DNA of 38,567 bases, taken from the NCBI RefSeq assembly GCF_000378225.1, contig NZ_KB905148.1:1-38567 (forward strand), given 5' to 3'. The notes under the pieces were generated by a model. The model searched no databases and was not told the origin of the DNA. It saw nothing but the letters and a program-made list of their open reading frames with translations. This document shows, in pieces, positions 33,045 through 38,567 of this stretch. How positions within the stretch are numbered: position 1 is the first letter of the stretch; every line of letters begins with the position of its first letter. Origin of the DNA: Methylophilus methylotrophus DSM 46235 = ATCC 53528. GTDB taxonomy: Bacteria > Pseudomonadota > Gammaproteobacteria > Burkholderiales > Methylophilaceae. Both the position numbers and the translations under genes were made by a program.

Positions 33045-35393
33045 TCAATAAGTCATTTCGACCAGAAACTTCACATTACGTCCGGGGCCGTACATACCCA
33101 AGCCTCCCATGCTGCCGTCAAGGCGATAAAGTTCATTTTTGAGGTTCTCTCCAATGAGTCTTAATGTCAATTGATCATTAGGTTTCCACCGAACACCTGC
33201 ATTCCACATTTCATAGCCGTCTTGCTGGCCGAATACATAACGACTATTGGTTGTCCCATCACCACTCAACAGAATGTCCCGCTCGGAGACTTTTCTGTAG
33301 GTCACATTTACCTCCAGATGCTTGCTCAACTCGGCACCAACATTAATATTTAATGCGTTACCTGGTGCTGTAAACAATGGGGCAAACGTCAAACCATTAA
33401 AGATTTCACCGTTAATACGCGAGTATCCGCTACGCATATACCAACCATGGTATTGCAAGAAACTCTCTACCTCTACGCCATTCCTGCGCTCCCACCCATC
33501 CTGGGTAATTGTTCCATCCGCTTCTTCGCGCAGAGAAATCAATAATTTAGAGGTGTAGGTATGGTAAAAATTGAGTTTTCCAGAAAACCAGATATCCGTA
33601 TTCAACAGATGTGGCGTTTGGTAACTCACCCCAACTTCTGTTGTCTCTGAGCGCTGCGGTTGATAGAGGTCGCCACAGATCAACGAATCAGGACCACTGA
33701 TTGGCATCAATAGCGCACGACAACGGCTAAATGGCCCTTGTGTGAAATACTCGTCGATCAACGGTGGACGAAAGCCCTGTCCATAATTACTGTAGAAAGT
33801 TAACTTGCTGGGGTTGGCTTTGGGAAATATGTCATACGCCACGCCCAAACTCCATGTTTCTTCTTTAAACCTGATGGTACTTTTTTGATCATAGGGTGCA
33901 AGCAGTGCGAGTGTTCCTCCCGCAGCCTCGACTTTGTAGCGATCCTGGCGATAACCAGGCGTTAGTGTCAATTGGCCAATCTCAAGTTTTGGCTGGAGAT
34001 AGATGGCCTCAAATGACTTACGTCCCGGGGGTGCAGATGCATTGAATCCATCGGGATAATTCATTTGCATGGACGTGTTGAGATTATCGTAAAACCTTGA
34101 GATTTCACGTTCACTGGAATTGAACTGATACCCGGCAAGTAATGAAGCTGCAAACGAACCAGACTGGAAAAACATGGCATTATTACTGATATCGACAGTC
34201 TCGGTCTTGTATTCATAAGTATCATTTAGATTACCGCGGCAAGTCATTGTATCTGCGGGATTTGCAGTATTGACGACGCCGTTGCATTGGGGCTGAAGCG
34301 GGTTAAAAGGAGAGTTGAATGATGATCCTTGCCCGATCAAATCATGAAGGTTTGTATGGCCTGCACCCACTGTCGCTTTTAAATTGATCCATGGTGTTTC
34401 TGGATCATAATTCAAAGTCTCAGACCATGTCAGGTCATCTACGGTACGAACCACATTCCCAAAGAATCCAGGTTGGCCACCGGTCGCGTCATATGGCTGC
34501 AGACCCGTATCATCGAACTTGACTATCGAAGTGACCAATTGCAAATCATCTGTGGGAAATAAACTCACCTTCAAAAGGTGCGAAATTGATTCAATGGCGG
34601 AGTTTTCTAATTTGGTCCCATCGCCCAAGGTCATGTTATTCGATTGACGGTTGGAGTAGTTATAAAGAATATCAACCCGCTCGTCGGGACGTGCATACAG
34701 CAAATAAGAACGGGAATATTCATCGCTGTTATTACCATATCCAAATTTGGCCTTACCACCATACTTTTGTCCCGGCTTTAAGAAATCCTCCGCGTTTTTG
34801 GTCGTAGCATTCACGGTTCCACCGAGCGAACCTGACCCACTCGTAATTTGTGGCCCACGTTGGACCTCAATACTCTTTAATAACTCTGGTTCAATAAAGG
34901 TGCCACCCATACGATATTTTTCAAAGCCCTTGGGAACACCATCCACTTTCACCATCACATCTTCGTTATCGCCATAACCACGAATATTAAATGTCATCCC
35001 GCTTGGGCGTGGACCACCAGTGATGGAAACCCCAGGCACGGACCTGAGGGCATCAAAAATATTACTGGGTTGTGCACGCTGCAATTGCTCACTCGTAATG
35101 GTGGTAATGGGCAATGTACGGTTAATACCCGTCTCGGGAGCTTTGGTTCTTGTATCAGTAACGGTCACTTCAGGAAGGGTATCTACCTCTTCAGCATCTG
35201 CTTTTTTAACAGGCTTGCTTACCGGCATCGGTTCTTCAATTTGATCGCCTGAGTTATTCACAGCATTCGCCTCAGCACAGGCATTGAGTGAACATAAGGC
35301 CAACATACACCAGAAGCCGAGTGACCGTAACGTGATGGGAGACTGAGTGTTATTTAAATATTGGTCCCGGGAGTAGACAGAGCTTGCCATCAT
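33045..35393 (-). CDS. TonB-dependent outer-membrane receptor
   Basis: A 782-residue ligand-gated porin. In order: a signal peptide (about 20-45), a Glu/Pro-rich linker, a TonB box-like LPEVTVTDTR (about 73-82), a plug domain (about 90-215; IFDALRSVPGVSI, MTFNIRGYGDNEDVMVKVDGV, IEVQRGPQITSGSGSLGGTV) and a 22-strand barrel ending in the aromatic-terminated RNVKFLVEMTY. The barrel contains YGQGFRPPLIDEYF, similar to the FRAP/WRPP segment of haem and hemophore receptors, so haem or an iron chelate is the likely ligand. Four cysteines in the extracellular loops may form two disulphides. The Fur-box promoter at 36500-36529 and the PEP-CTERM gene upstream support iron regulation. Confidence 0.92.
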   Translation of the reverse strand: MMASSVYSRDQYLNNTQSPITLRSLGFWCMLALCSLNACAEANAVNNSGDQIEEPMPVSKPVKKADAEEVDTLPEVTVTDTRTKAPETGINRTLPITTITSEQLQRAQPSNIFDALRSVPGVSITGGPRPSGMTFNIRGYGDNEDVMVKVDGVPKGFEKYRMGGTFIEPELLKSIEVQRGPQITSGSGSLGGTVNATTKNAEDFLKPGQKYGGKAKFGYGNNSDEYSRSYLLYARPDERVDILYNYSNRQSNNMTLGDGTKLENSAIESISHLLKVSLFPTDDLQLVTSIVKFDDTGLQPYDATGGQPGFFGNVVRTVDDLTWSETLNYDPETPWINLKATVGAGHTNLHDLIGQGSSFNSPFNPLQPQCNGVVNTANPADTMTCRGNLNDTYEYKTETVDISNNAMFFQSGSFAASLLAGYQFNSSEREISRFYDNLNTSMQMNYPDGFNASAPPGRKSFEAIYLQPKLEIGQLTLTPGYRQDRYKVEAAGGTLALLAPYDQKSTIRFKEETWSLGVAYDIFPKANPSKLTFYSNYGQGFRPPLIDEYFTQGPFSRCRALLMPISGPDSLICGDLYQPQRSETTEVGVSYQTPHLLNTDIWFSGKLNFYHTYTSKLLISLREEADGTITQDGWERRNGVEVESFLQYHGWYMRSGYSRINGEIFNGLTFAPLFTAPGNALNINVGAELSKHLEVNVTYRKVSERDILLSGDGTTNSRYVFGQQDGYEMWNAGVRWKPNDQLTLRLIGENLKNELYRLDGSMGGLGMYGPGRNVKFLVEMTY

Positions 35394-35423
35394 GAAGCAC
35401 TTTTATTCTTTAGCAGGAAGAAA

Positions 35424-35446
35424 CAAAGGGGCTGAATGCCCCTTTG
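35424..35446 (-). terminator. Hairpin between the PEP-CTERM gene and the receptor gene
   Basis: CAAAGGGGC (35424-35432) and GCCCCTTTG (35438-35446) pair fully with a 5-base loop. On the minus strand the stem is followed by TTTCTT. It can stop part of the transcription coming from the PEP-CTERM gene and would leave the receptor at a lower level. Confidence 0.7.
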
Positions 35447-35467
35447 CCGTGAGTGGCCTAGCCGGTG

Positions 35468-36124
35468 TTAGGCATTGTTTTTTGAGGATCGGCGTGCCGC
35501 AAACGCCATCAGGCCAATTCCTAATGCCATCATGCTAAACGCTTCAGGCTCAGGTACTGGCGTCACACTGGGTACTGAAACAGCAGCCAACGCAACCTGA
35601 TCCAGGCTCATGCTAGAAGAGGTCGAACTGAATGTGAAGGTGTACATGCTAGCCGCACTTACACTGCTCCATTTCCAGTATAGTTCCTGCTCTGCTGTTG
35701 CACCCCCCATGACAACACCCTGATCTTCATTAAATTGAAGCACTGAAGTCGCAGATACACCATTCAAGGTTGCTGTGGAGCTCGCCAGCGTTCCAAGCGT
35801 TCCAATACGTAAATAAACATCAAATAAACCACTGCTTGCGCCACTCAATGTTGCGGTAAATGCAGTCGCTCCAGAGAAACTGTAAATATTACCGCCACCT
35901 GTAATGAAAGCACCTCCAGTGGTTTCCTGTACAGAAGCAGTTGTGCCACTCGTCAATGCAACTTCTGGCGTGGTGTCATTCGTGCTATTGAAAATATTCC
36001 ATTCTGCATAACTTACTGGCGTTTCACTACCCCATGGATTGGCTGAGTTCCATACTGCTTGTGTTGCGAATGCAGAACCGCTGAATGACACACCTAGAGC
36101 CAAAGCTAATACTGATAATTTCAT
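35468..36124 (-). CDS. PEP-CTERM sorted surface/exported protein
   Basis: Exported protein of 218 residues from ATG 36124 (MKLSVLALALG), preceded by GAGGAG nine bases upstream. It has a signal peptide (about 1-20, cleavage after AFA), a Ser/Thr/Gly-rich body of likely beta structure (about 21-185) and a classical sorting tail: VPEPEAFSMMALGIGLMAFAARRSS, i.e. the PEP motif, one membrane helix and a basic end. Exosortase would cut at the PEP motif. No exosortase gene is in this window. The body has no cysteine and no haem-binding CxxCH. Its position between a Fur-controlled promoter and a TonB receptor suggests a role in surface capture of iron or haem, which is inference. Confidence 0.9.
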   Translation of the reverse strand: MKLSVLALALGVSFSGSAFATQAVWNSANPWGSETPVSYAEWNIFNSTNDTTPEVALTSGTTASVQETTGGAFITGGGNIYSFSGATAFTATLSGASSGLFDVYLRIGTLGTLASSTATLNGVSATSVLQFNEDQGVVMGGATAEQELYWKWSSVSAASMYTFTFSSTSSSMSLDQVALAAVSVPSVTPVPEPEAFSMMALGIGLMAFAARRSSKNNA

Positions 36125-36133
36125 GATTTGAAT

Positions 36134-36139
36134 CTCCTC
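36134..36139 (-). promoter_or_regulatory. Shine-Dalgarno of the PEP-CTERM gene, partly inside a helix
   Basis: GAGGAG on the minus strand, nine bases before ATG 36124. Its first three bases (36137-36139) belong to the 3' strand of the closing helix of the structured leader, so access for the ribosome may depend on folding. Confidence 0.7.
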
Positions 36140-36217
36140 AACGAGCACCTGTGCCCCTTCCTCACGAAGGCCATGGCGCCACCTCTAAAATAAGTCTCAC
36201 GGACCCACACCGTTGAG
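36137..36217 (-). ncRNA. Structured leader of the PEP-CTERM gene, candidate cis-regulatory RNA
   Basis: On the minus strand CUCAACG (36217-36211) pairs perfectly with CGUUGAG (36143-36137), closing an 81-nt domain. Inside are the hairpin CCUUC-GUGAG-GAAGG and a weaker GGUC-CGUGA-GACU; both loops show CGUGA. An outer, interrupted helix GAUUGAAAU / AUUCAAAUC is also possible. The 3' strand of the closing helix overlaps the Shine-Dalgarno sequence. I do not recognise it as any common riboswitch class (TPP, FMN, glycine, cobalamin, SAM, c-di-GMP-I, fluoride). Function and ligand are unknown. Confidence 0.55.
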
Positions 36218-36277
36218 TATTTCAATCACCATGCAAACACATGGTTATAAAACTGAAATTAAGAGAATAAATTCTGG

Positions 36278-36466
36278 CTATTTTTCTACCGCAGCCTCAA
36301 AGTCAACGACAAATCGGTATTGCTTGCCGCAATCGATAATGACTTCTTTTTGTCCGCGCTTTAGCAAACGAATGTCTACCCTGATGCTGCCAAAACCGTC
36401 ATGAGCGATCAGCTCATCCAGTAAATCGAGCAATCTTTTTTTTACAGGCGCATTCCCAGCTTGCAT
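36278..36466 (-). CDS. Small conserved-looking protein, first gene of the Fur-controlled unit
   Basis: A 62-residue protein with a helical N-terminal half (KKRLLDLLDELIAHDG) and a strand-rich second half (GSIRVDIRLLKRGQKEVIIDCGKQYRFVVDF). The latter resembles, weakly, the short DUF2292-type proteins. No signal peptide or membrane segment is present. It lies directly behind the Fur-box promoter and ahead of the PEP-CTERM gene. The ribosome binding site is weak. The regular pattern and codon-like composition make it likely real, and the function is unknown. Confidence 0.65.
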   Translation of the reverse strand: MQAGNAPVKKRLLDLLDELIAHDGFGSIRVDIRLLKRGQKEVIIDCGKQYRFVVDFEAAVEK

Positions 36467-36499
36467 AGAATTTATTCATGATTGTTTTGTTTGTTTTTA

Positions 36500-36529
36500 A
36501 ATGATAACAATTATCATTTACTTTATCAA
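36500..36529 (-). promoter_or_regulatory. Fur box overlapping a sigma-70 promoter
   Basis: AATGATAA-CAA-TTATCATT (36500-36518) is a perfect 19-base palindrome close to the consensus Fur site. On the minus strand TTGATA (36529-36524) and TATCAT (36506-36501) are separated by 17 bases, giving a good -35/-10 pair with the -10 and spacer inside the Fur site. Iron-loaded Fur would block it. It reads towards the 62-residue gene, the PEP-CTERM gene and the TonB receptor. Confidence 0.9.
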
Positions 36530-36664
36530 TAAAAAATACTCCATCAGGGTGAGTAAAGAATCGTTAATGCCCGAACTGGCATTTTTAGGGAATCACAGCA
36601 TGAAACAAAGACCTAGGCAGGATGGTTTCGCAACCACCCTCCGCAGAATCAAGAGGAATAACAG

Positions 36665-36692
36665 CAAAATACCCGCTTATGCCGGTATTTTG
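36665..36692 (-). terminator. Hairpin downstream of the glutathione transferase gene
   Basis: CAAAATACC and GGTATTTTG pair around a 10-base loop that extends the stem with a bulge. On the minus strand the 3' arm ends in a T-rich run. It stands 14 bases after the GST stop. Its sequence also resembles the dispersed ACCCGC...GCGGGT repeats that give IPAYAG-like false translations in many proteobacteria. Confidence 0.65.
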
Positions 36693-36706
36693 TGATTGAA
36701 CTGGCT

Positions 36707-37330
36707 TTATGGTTGAGGCATGGTTTGCTTGAAGCTGGGACGCTTGACGAGCACGCCATAGTGCTTGGCTAAGTTGGGAAACTTTTCTTGCCAGTATTTA
36801 CCTTCCCATTGGACATTTTTAAAACGCAAATCGAGATAGCCCAACGCGGTCCCCAGCGCAATGTCCGCCAGACTGAAAGTTTCGTTCACACACCATTTCT
36901 TTTTAAGCAGGTCTTCATCCAGCGTAGCCAATCCAGCAGTCACTTTGGCAAACTGCTTTTCAATCCAAGCGGCAGATTGTTGTGCATCGGGTTTACGCTG
37001 TTCCAGCATCACAGCCACAGCTGCGTCACAGATCCCATCCGCCAATGCTTCCCAGCGTCGGACTTTGATCTTGGCCGAATGGTCTTGCGGAATCAGGTGA
37101 GCCACTGGTGTGCGATGATCCAGATACTCGACAATCACACGCGAATCATACAAGGCCTCGCCATCATCCAGCACCAGCACAGGGACTTTACCCAATGGAT
37201 TATGTTGGCTGACTGGACAATCCGGTGCGGACAATACCACCTCGGTTAACGTGAGGTCGACATGTTTCTCGATGGCGACAATGCGCACCTTGCGCGCATA
37301 TGGACTGTTTACCGTATATAAAAGCTGCAT
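36707..37330 (-). CDS. Glutathione S-transferase family protein (YibF-like)
   Basis: A 207-residue cytosolic protein with an N-terminal thioredoxin-like domain (LLYTVNSPYARKVRIVAIEK; NPLGKVPVL; DSRVIVEYLD, about 1-80) and an all-helical C-terminal domain (about 90-200). The SPYARKV segment carries the likely glutathione-activating serine. It resembles the YibF group, whose substrate is unknown. It is divergent from nadC. Confidence 0.9.
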   Translation of the reverse strand: MQLLYTVNSPYARKVRIVAIEKHVDLTLTEVVLSAPDCPVSQHNPLGKVPVLVLDDGEALYDSRVIVEYLDHRTPVAHLIPQDHSAKIKVRRWEALADGICDAAVAVMLEQRKPDAQQSAAWIEKQFAKVTAGLATLDEDLLKKKWCVNETFSLADIALGTALGYLDLRFKNVQWEGKYWQEKFPNLAKHYGVLVKRPSFKQTMPQP

Positions 37331-37494
37331 AGTGTGATGTGAGCCAAAAGGTTAAATACTTGTTCAAAAAAATACCCCATGACGAAAATCGCATGTCCAA
37401 ACATAGCGGGTCTTGGGGTTCTTTTTATTATAATAGCTTTTGGCATGGGCTTAGAATGGTCACATGCATAATTTTTAAACTTGCAGACACTCAA

Positions 37495-38367
37495 ATGACC
37501 AACGCCATGCCTGATCAGCCATTCCCGCCCTACATAAACGCTTCCCTCATCGCTGAACAAGTCCGTGCAGCGCTGGCAGAAGACGTGGGCAATGGAGACT
37601 TAACCGCAGCACTGATTCCGGTGGGCACACAAGCAACCGCAAGCATCATTAGCCGTGAGCAGGCCATCATTTGTGGCTGTGCCTGGGTAGCGCAATGCTT
37701 CAAACAACTGGATCCAACCATTGAATTGACTTGGCTGGTCAAGGAGGGGGACCGTGTAGAAGCGAACCAGGCACTCGTCAACATTCAGGGGGATGCCCGC
37801 GCCATGCTAAGCGCAGAGAGGCCTGCACTCAATTTCCTGCAAACCCTGTCTGCCGTATCCACCCACACTCGCCGTTATGTAGATGCGATTGCTGGACTAC
37901 CCACACAGATTTTAGATACGCGCAAAACCTTACCTGGACTACGCCTGGCACAAAAATACGCTGTGCTGACAGGGGGCGGGGCAAATCAGAGGTTGGCTTT
38001 ATACGATGGCATTCTAATCAAGGAAAACCACATCGCTGCGGCAGGGTCAATTCCAGCTGTGTTGGCAGCCGCCTTTGCCATGGGTAGCACAAGCAATATC
38101 CAGATTGAAGTCGAGAGCCTGGATGAACTGCAACAAGCGCTGAGCGCAGGCGCAACCAGTATCCTGCTGGACAACTTCACGCTGGAAGACCTGCGGCAAG
38201 CTGTGGCGCTCAACCAGAAACGCGCTTTGCTAGAAGCATCAGGCAATGTGGATTTAACGACGGTGCGGGCAATTGCCGAAACAGGCGTGGATAGGATATC
38301 CATTGGGGCCCTGACTAAGCATATTCAGGCGGTCGATTTAAGTATGCGGATTCAGATGAAGTTGTAG
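37495..38367 (+). CDS. nadC: Nicotinate-nucleotide pyrophosphorylase (carboxylating)
   Basis: Quinolinate phosphoribosyltransferase, which forms nicotinate mononucleotide in NAD synthesis. From ATG 37495 (MTNAMPDQPFPPY) the protein has 290 residues, the usual length. Motifs seen: LAEDVGNGDLTAALIP, SAERPALNFLQTLSAVST, LDTRKTLPGLRLAQKYAV, GGGANQRLALYDGILIKENHI, and IEVES followed by LLDN. An in-frame reading back to 37339 adds 52 residues without family features and is rejected. A TATAAT at 37429-37434 may be its -10, though without a good -35. Confidence 0.96.
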   Translation: MTNAMPDQPFPPYINASLIAEQVRAALAEDVGNGDLTAALIPVGTQATASIISREQAIICGCAWVAQCFKQLDPTIELTWLVKEGDRVEANQALVNIQGDARAMLSAERPALNFLQTLSAVSTHTRRYVDAIAGLPTQILDTRKTLPGLRLAQKYAVLTGGGANQRLALYDGILIKENHIAAAGSIPAVLAAAFAMGSTSNIQIEVESLDELQQALSAGATSILLDNFTLEDLRQAVALNQKRALLEASGNVDLTTVRAIAETGVDRISIGALTKHIQAVDLSMRIQMKL

Positions 38368-38422
38368 GTTATTTAAAATCGCCCATCAACTGTAAAGGCT
38401 AATGTTCTTATCTGACATTTGG

Positions 38423-38567
38423 TTTCGCCTAAAGGCGAGTTACTTTCTGTTGCTTGCCCCACAGAAAGTAACCACAACTAACGGAGTGTTGCGGCGTAGG
38501 CTAACCTTTAGGTTAAGCCACAAAGTGGCGGCCGTAGCCAAAGAAGAGGGCACCCAGCCATCACGGC
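38423..38567 (+). repeat. Right-end copy of the dispersed repeat
   Basis: Three modules in a row. First, TCGCC-TAAA-GGCGA (38425-38438) followed by GTTACTTTCTGT (38439-38450) paired with ACAGAAAGTAAC (38461-38472). Second, the module 38471-38541 with small hairpins such as AACCT-TT-AGGTT and CCAC-AAA-GTGG. Third, the closing segment 38538-38565 ending CACCCAGCCATCACG. All three also occur in 1-772, mostly inverted. No coding potential is seen. Confidence 0.8.

Follow-up and report, generated by a model that had tools for sequence, protein, structure and literature searches.

In eukaryotes the IRE, a hairpin with a C bulge five pairs below the six-base loop CAGUGN, is read by the IRP, and in ribosomal-protein autogenous leaders and phage coat-protein operators a protein on a bulged hairpin near the start codon sets translation. 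Guanidine-II (mini-ykkC) riboswitches have ACGR loops without a bulge. In haem uptake, HemP/HmuP is a proposed post-transcriptional activator at the 5′ UTR of the TonB haem receptor in Ensifer and Chromobacterium (PMC9131926, PMC11442138), in both of which it is described as working through the HPRE (PMC9131926). HPRE sequences are given as GCCAGCC-type repeats in PMC9131926 and are termed a direct repeat in PMC9241770; the same papers give KLILxK as the C-terminal motif of HemP/HmuP (PMC9241770) and describe the proposed mechanisms of HemP/HmuP-like proteins as differing between species (PMC9131926).

Our analysis of 38,567 nt of Methylophilus methylotrophus DNA, referred to below as the window, suggests that a two-hairpin leader RNA and a small protein form an undescribed pair tuning haem-uptake and pilus genes. 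The window locus runs, on the minus strand, from a promoter-like and Fur-box-like site through a gene for a 62-aa protein and the leader to a PEP-CTERM gene and a TonB-dependent receptor gene, for which the top NCBIfam model is TIGR01785 (haem/haemoglobin receptors), yet under its cut-off (Table 1). The leader is probably in the same transcript as the small gene, since scanning the interval between the small gene and the PEP-CTERM gene found no promoter- or terminator-like site. The site ahead of the small gene is, from its sequence, the probable start of this transcript and probably iron-repressed; the promoter scan alone is at chance level, with one site found against 1.5 expected, and the window 19-mer, which has four mismatches to a Fur consensus (0 of 60 mononucleotide shuffles as good), also stands upstream of the small gene in two further loci (L066, L067). 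Nine bases separate GAGGAG from the PEP-CTERM ATG at 36124. The leader also holds a 17-codon frame, MAFVRKGHRCSLRRFKS (36174-36121, minus strand), with a TGA that shares the sequence ATGA with the PEP-CTERM start. It is unlikely to encode a conserved leader peptide, as the ATG is lost in relatives (CTG in L010, GTG in L007) and the frame in L003-L006 has no stop and continues in frame into the PEP-CTERM gene, the comparison covering 10 of 14 leader rows.

Table 1. Positions of the features of the locus in the window
Feature	Position	Strand	Remark
TonB-dependent receptor gene, 782 aa, haem/haemoglobin receptor-like	33045..35393	-	TIGR01785 286 bits, below the cut-off of 316.85
PEP-CTERM surface/secreted protein gene, 218 aa	35468..36124	-	First gene behind the element; PF07589 28.6 bits, cut-off 20.7
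Shine-Dalgarno GAGGAG of the PEP-CTERM gene	36134..36139	-	From sequence
81-nt domain of the preliminary description, closed by CUCAACG/CGUUGAG	36137..36217	-	Alternative fold, excludes hairpin A; seen in Methylophilus leaders
Hairpin B	36156..36171	-	Bulged G 36171, stem CCUUC/GAAGG, loop GUGAG 36165-36161
Hairpin A	36194..36219	-	Core 36217-36196; bulged A 36214, loop GUGGG 36208-36204, U-U beside the loop
Upstream hairpin CCAUG..CAUGG in Methylophilaceae leaders	36229..36244	-	Alignment columns 17-22 with 33-38
Small-protein gene, 62 aa, family without a name; proposed RNA-binding partner	36278..36466	-	Helix and three strands predicted
Promoter-like TTGATA-17-TATCAT overlapping Fur-box-like palindrome ATGATAATTGTTATCAT (36517-36501)	36501..36529	-	10/12 matches

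As with HemP/HmuP, a small protein is encoded here in haem-uptake operons, in the same position and of similar size, and our first hypothesis was that the 62-aa protein is a HemP and the leader its HPRE. An HHalign comparison with 11 HemP sequences, found by motif search among 29 HemP loci, returned a HemP-like match at 26% probability over 14 columns. Against this, the 62-aa protein has no PF10636 match and coexists with a genuine HemP (PF10636, 50.6 bits) encoded elsewhere in the same genome (G000:C6:27129-27239, minus strand), 28 of the 41 searched genomes having one, and by eye the C-terminal KLILxK motif is absent from both the 62-aa sequence and the family consensus. Furthermore, the HPRE is a sequence repeat whereas the element here is a bulged hairpin, the interval 33230-38567, which runs to the end of the window, holds no copy of GCCAGCCAG even when one mismatch is allowed, and the targets here include PEP-CTERM and pilin-like genes. 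HemP membership of the 62-aa protein is already contradicted, and the hypothesis, now very improbable, was dropped on the PF10636 negatives, the separate HemP and the lack of an HPRE-like repeat. The rest of the window, positions 1-33229, carries 33 copies of GCCAGCCAG at the same tolerance against 13.4 expected, with none of 100 shuffles holding as many, an excess possibly due to codon or composition bias.

The 62-aa protein belongs to a family with 11 invariant positions in 54 sequences, of which the polar or charged six are H22, Q39, K40, E41, Q49 and R51. Neither a Pfam family at E <= 10 nor an NCBIfam family at E <= 1 matched the window protein, and among nine relatives DUF986 and Imm64 appeared in one each (E 0.07-0.08), which we take as noise. 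PDB chains gave nothing under E = 0.1. AlphaFold2 predicts one helix and three antiparallel strands (pLDDT 82.8, pTM 0.63), and Foldseek on this model found nothing under E = 0.001, the best match, a chain of the Drosha/DGCR8 complex at 0.041, not being significant. The top 50 include double-stranded-RNA-binding proteins, a ribosome hibernation factor and SRP proteins beside many unrelated folds, so that the RNA-binding folds are a hint from a predicted model, no more. The protein is rare but wide-ranging: it was found in 3 of 398 genomes drawn from the phylum, the window's own among them, and in 5 of 185 drawn from the class, and a scan of a genome collection returned 211 stretches encoding it, the best 80 of which were taken with their flanks. 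Besides Proteobacteria, these best 80 of 211 records bear the labels Nitrospira, Phycisphaerae, Omnitrophota, Deltaproteobacteria and Ammonifex; many are metagenome assemblies and single taxon labels may be wrong.

The preliminary description had read the leader as a domain of 81 nt closed by a perfect 7-bp helix between CUCAACG (36217-36211) and CGUUGAG (36143-36137) on the minus strand, and this helix is found as claimed, with a predicted pair probability of 0.96-0.99 in the naked leader. It was also held to cover the Shine-Dalgarno; its 3′ strand does enter GAGGAG, only the first three of the six bases being paired. Two hairpins had been given a shared CGUGA loop, of which one with such a loop is in the minimum-energy fold and the 5′ one shows two-sided change at 0 of 7 pairs. 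As the defining element of the leader the closing helix does not survive comparison, since two-sided change occurs at 0 of its 7 pairs and 86.9% of cells are paired against 87.2% in shuffles; this test used the 12 distinct leaders among 14 Methylophilaceae leaders, for which 12 other genomes supplied PEP-CTERM homologues of full or almost full length and G012 a broken one, and the helix is broken in three of the 14 (L012, L014, L015). RNAalifold on the 14 leaders prefers a hairpin of CUCA..UGAG and CGG..CCG and a second hairpin CCUUC..GAAGG, and the upstream hairpin has two pairs with two-sided change. Within these close leaders hairpin A is near-invariant (97.6% paired, 0 two-sided changes), and it shows no covariation there because it hardly varies; its support comes, by sequence comparison, from distant loci. 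The covariation that the closing helix lacks in homologous leaders is found in a conserved pair of hairpins, A and B, and the idea of a translation-controlling leader keeps its structured RNA directly before the PEP-CTERM start and loses the helix on which it had been built. As judged by comparing loci, the leader RNA at these coordinates is real and covarying, with a fold other than the one proposed.

That the leader fits no riboswitch class familiar from earlier work was borne out, in that no Rfam 15 family matches it: there are 0 matches in the window, just two weak matches of the leader at E <= 10 (14.6 and 10.9 bits, far under threshold), and none in 20 related loci, save an SAH riboswitch elsewhere in L134. 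The latter (RF01057, 45.2 bits, L134:3175-3274, minus strand) lies in the flank of a Zoogloea record. A literature search, reaching titles and the beginnings of abstracts and with most subscription journals out of its scope, found no such element, and the leader-RNA class is undescribed as far as these searches and Rfam 15 show.

The hairpin shape was spotted by eye in the DNA that separates the small gene from the gene behind it. Both hairpins follow one unit of an outer stem, a single bulged purine on the 5′ side, a 5-bp inner stem and a five-base loop NNGRG, often GYGRG, to which the conserved window loops GUGGG in A and GUGAG in B conform; the outer stem is clear in A and weak or absent in many B. 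At a score of at least 16, a bulged hairpin lies within -20 to +160 of the small-gene stop in 36 of the best 80 of 211 loci, close relatives included, whereas 20 dinucleotide shuffles averaged 0.5 and never exceeded 2 of 80. Over the same best 80 of 211, 5 loci scored with the loop reversed and 0 with a C-type loop; with the bulge set to 0, 2 or 3 nt the counts were 2, 14 and 5. Hairpin B follows A by 27-62 nt with the same bulge, stem length and loop type; of 48 A sites, 34 have a B at a score of at least 10, against 1.4 (maximum 6) in mononucleotide shuffles, a further 10 have a weaker B and 4 have none. Four Rhodocyclales-type loci (L116, L128, L134, L135) carry two A-type units before B.

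Covariation supports both hairpins. The hairpin-A alignment of 30 rows, 29 of them distinct, joins the window to 29 of 37 units hand-picked from the best 80 of 211 loci, leaving out three units that merely repeat the window sequence and five in which the inner stem has 6 bp. In it 95.0% of cells are paired, two-sided changes occur at 9 of 9 pairs (shuffled mean 7.7), and the covariation score is 1.034 against 0.205 shuffled (0 of 500 as high) and at most 0.188 when the pairing is slid. For hairpin B, with 29 of 34 units and the window, the values are 94.0%, 5 of 5 pairs (shuffled mean 3.8) and 0.809 against 0.284 shuffled and at most 0.324 when slid. As the rows of A and B were picked for pairing, these paired percentages are inflated and the locus shuffle test is the fairer measure. 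The counts of pairs and of pair types beat shuffles less clearly than the covariation scores do: the two-sided pair count was matched in 16 of 500 shuffles for A and 85 of 500 for B, and the pair types in 17 and 14 of 500 respectively. The bulge is A or G and the loop NNGRG throughout the hairpin-A alignment, and B is alike with few exceptions. That the leader has no function and folds by chance would agree with its folding energy of -36 kcal/mol, which is modestly better than shuffles (z -1.81, 9 of 200 equally good); the covariation of A and B refutes it, and with the placement statistics given below it is hardly credible.

The unit recalls the IRE in that a single bulge lies five pairs below the loop in the leader of iron-related genes, a resemblance only: the bulge here is a purine, not C, the loop is NNGRG of five, not CAGUGN of six, and the bacterial leader has two or three units and a candidate partner of about 60 aa. 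Autogenous leaders and coat-protein operators likewise have a bulged hairpin near the start codon, here a candidate protein site, and differ in that the gene of the presumed binder lies upstream here and control falls on other genes, which can be kilobases distant.

A covariance model of hairpin unit A, termed R1, was run over both strands of the best 80 of 211 loci (1.50 Mb) and gave 61 matches at E <= 3, of which 60 lie on the gene strand. This strand bias and the bulge argue for an RNA rather than a DNA operator. Of these matches, 52 fall 0-700 nt from the small gene, which is 3.7% of the searched space in these best 80 of 211 loci, and an element stands behind the small gene in 46 of the 80. 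Nineteen of the 46 are outside the training rows, several of them equal to or closely resembling a training row. Loci on the same contig were counted once (L062/L072, L065/L068, L058/L139). Six of the nine matches elsewhere in the best 80 of 211 precede another PEP-CTERM-type gene, five of which exceed the Pfam cut-off (L072, L074, L075, L078 and L084: two Methylobacillus records and one each from Methylovorus, Methyloversatilis and another Methylophilus), and the sixth, in the Nitrospira record L103, reaches 14.4 bits, below the cut-off of 20.7. Those in L076 (minus strand), L109 and L126 have no such clear target. A further match precedes a PEP-CTERM gene in L061, and one in L059 a gene of that type for which Pfam gives no match. 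In the window's own genome the match at hairpin A (28 bits) is the sole one at E <= 1; by this search the domain precedes no other PEP-CTERM gene of this genome, a point that the preliminary description had put forward for checking.

The placement of the element points to the gene behind it. In 45 of 47 leaders the gap from loop B to the start codon is 36-54 nt (41 nt to the ATG in the window; median 41, mean 42.1 and s.d. 9.4 over all 47), the outliers being 19 in L094 and 93 in L105, where start-codon choice is doubtful. At 36 sites, L105 left out, the s.d. is 5.1 from loop B to the start codon and 21.3 from the small-gene stop to loop A, from which the element seems to belong to the downstream gene. 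A conserved structure at a steady distance from the regulated start codon is the mark of a translation-controlling protein-binding leader, and such a structure is what we find.

Which protein would bind the hairpins is a further matter, and another one, such as an RNase or an Hfq-like or CsrA-like protein, could bind or process them, with the small protein merely a neighbour having a related job. Indeed R1 finds nothing behind the small gene in 34 of the best 80 of 211 loci. Some of these carry variant hairpins, by script or by eye, and the deltaproteobacterial, Omnitrophota and three Aquabacterium loci among them seemingly have no element. Set against another binder are the bulge-plus-loop rule, found directly behind this one gene family in 46 of the best 80 of 211, and, for a CsrA-like protein, loops without a constant GGA, the CsrA motif. 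A search of 184 further genomes from the class, in which R1 reached E <= 0.02 nowhere, points the same way and says little: it is weak evidence, as no genome had more than 41 candidates scored and the small protein is present in four of them. We regard another binder as rather unlikely. Seven loci of deltaproteobacterial, Omnitrophota and other origin (L102, L106, L111, L121, L123, L124, L136) encode the small protein with neither an R1 match nor an element by eye, and may use another RNA shape. In the three Aquabacterium loci (L077, L081, L083) a HemS/ChuX-type gene, assigned by Pfam in L077 only, lies within about 20 nt behind the small gene, with no element between.

An intact small protein and an R1 match go together across 37 family genomes, both being present in the same 13 and both absent from 23; this co-occurrence is mostly physical linkage of neighbouring genes. 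In G012 (contig C5; L015, L063) the small-protein gene is broken by stops, hairpin A is decayed and the PEP-CTERM start has become ATA, such that the module seems lost as a whole, and the joint decay of gene and hairpin fits a functional pair. At genome scale R1 lacks sensitivity further out: six distant genomes that encode the protein gave no match adjoining its gene at E <= 1. Of G041, G130 and G220 it matched G041 alone, away from the small gene, and when the G041 and G130 stretches were searched by themselves it picked up a site close to the small gene or ahead of a second target. Pilin-type variants, which R1 is insensitive to, can be seen by eye in G571 and G220. Three genome-scale matches (G179:C7, G041:C3, G041:C4) have no fitting gene behind them and are probably chance.

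Two groups of targets stand behind the small gene in most of the best 80 of 211 loci. The first comprises PEP-CTERM and TonB-receptor genes, the PEP-CTERM targets sharing a single type, ..WDS..PW..AEWN.., recognised by motif and by eye, and frequently accompanied by a TonB receptor and haem genes. Two Aquabacterium records have HemS/ChuX (255 bits) and a periplasmic binding protein, and the annotated operon of Aquabacterium olei holds the small gene, PEP-CTERM, TonB receptor, ChuX/HutX and ABC genes, with an R1 match of 24.6 bits. The second group consists of genes for long proteins whose N-terminus is that of a type IV pilin, and more pseudopilins come after them. Scanning with a Fur consensus, at a level equalled by at most 3 of 60 mononucleotide shuffles, places Fur-box-like sites ahead of the small gene in 33 of 33 loci (L066-L097 and L100). 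The other 47 of the best 80 of 211, for the most part of pilin type or from outside the betaproteobacteria, have such a site in 8 cases. Judged by these sequences, regulation of the promoter by iron may be mainly a property of the haem group.

We propose a model for the leader that most reasonably fits these observations. Computation gives the two hairpins with their covariation and common bulge and loop pattern, a near-constant spacing from the start codon, an association with the small gene and, in the window, two folds that compete; we infer that the small protein would be the binder, would act on translation and would activate it. In the window leader hairpin A and the closing helix are mutually exclusive, as both use the CUCAACG strand; the full naked leader is predicted to prefer the closing helix (-38.2 kcal/mol, against -32.9 with hairpin A) and the growing transcript to fold hairpin A first, and the closing helix may be a local OFF state competing with hairpin A. 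In Methylophilus, iron starvation would lift Fur repression of the transcript that the small gene and the leader probably share, and the small protein would be made first and would then bind hairpins A and B. The bound protein would keep hairpin A formed, and the CUCAACG strand could not then pair with the Shine-Dalgarno; the ribosome site would stay free and the PEP-CTERM/TonB-receptor message would be translated, making this an activating switch. More generally, binding would change translation or message stability of the next gene. We consider it reasonably probable that the candidate small protein binds hairpins A and B and changes the translation or stability of the next message, with an activating effect in Methylophilus. 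As a general mechanism, masking of the Shine-Dalgarno was rejected, as in no more than 17 of 43 leaders does pairing of its region with A or B exceed the mean of that leader's shuffles (means 0.19 against 0.15), and the switch is proposed for Methylophilus alone since this pairing is not family-wide.

The same competing folds could be read as those of a small-molecule riboswitch, with the hairpins as ligand pocket and the closing helix as expression platform. The structured leader lies directly before the start codon, the start region opens by more than 0.1 in 18 of 47 leaders, and becomes more closed in 2, when A and B are forced to form, and guanidine-II riboswitches also are two successive hairpins with a shared conserved loop motif before the start codon. 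The ACGR loops of the latter are unbulged, though, and the leader here is without an Rfam match; the closing helix lacks covariation, Shine-Dalgarno pairing with A or B is not general, the A-to-B distance is variable at 27-62 nt and there are two different target groups. The hairpins resemble repeats of one bulged unit, two or three per leader, behind a small-protein gene, an arrangement that makes the riboswitch reading of the preliminary description less favoured and, to us, distinctly unlikely.

If the pairing of the small protein with hairpins A and B proves true, a class of structured leader RNA is gained together with a protein family unmatched in Pfam and NCBIfam, the two adjoining in several phyla, and the pairing provides a defined RNA site for post-transcriptional haem-uptake control, linked to a second set of exported proteins. 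The RNA-protein pair is directly testable with the 62-aa protein and a leader of about 100 nt, both of a harmless methylotroph. A wider reading, which we hold to be unlikely, is that the small protein is an iron- or haem-responsive RNA-binding reader of tandem bulged hairpins, an independently evolved counterpart of IRE/IRP in several phyla that has been re-used for pilin-like genes. The hairpin pair between the small-protein gene and its target is present in Proteobacteria and in a few loci labelled Nitrospira, Phycisphaerae and Ammonifex. In Methylophaga and Colwellia records (L104, L105, L108, L112, L113, L115, L118, L120, L122, L132, L140 and L144) long type-IV-pilin-like genes have this small protein and hairpin pair in front of them.
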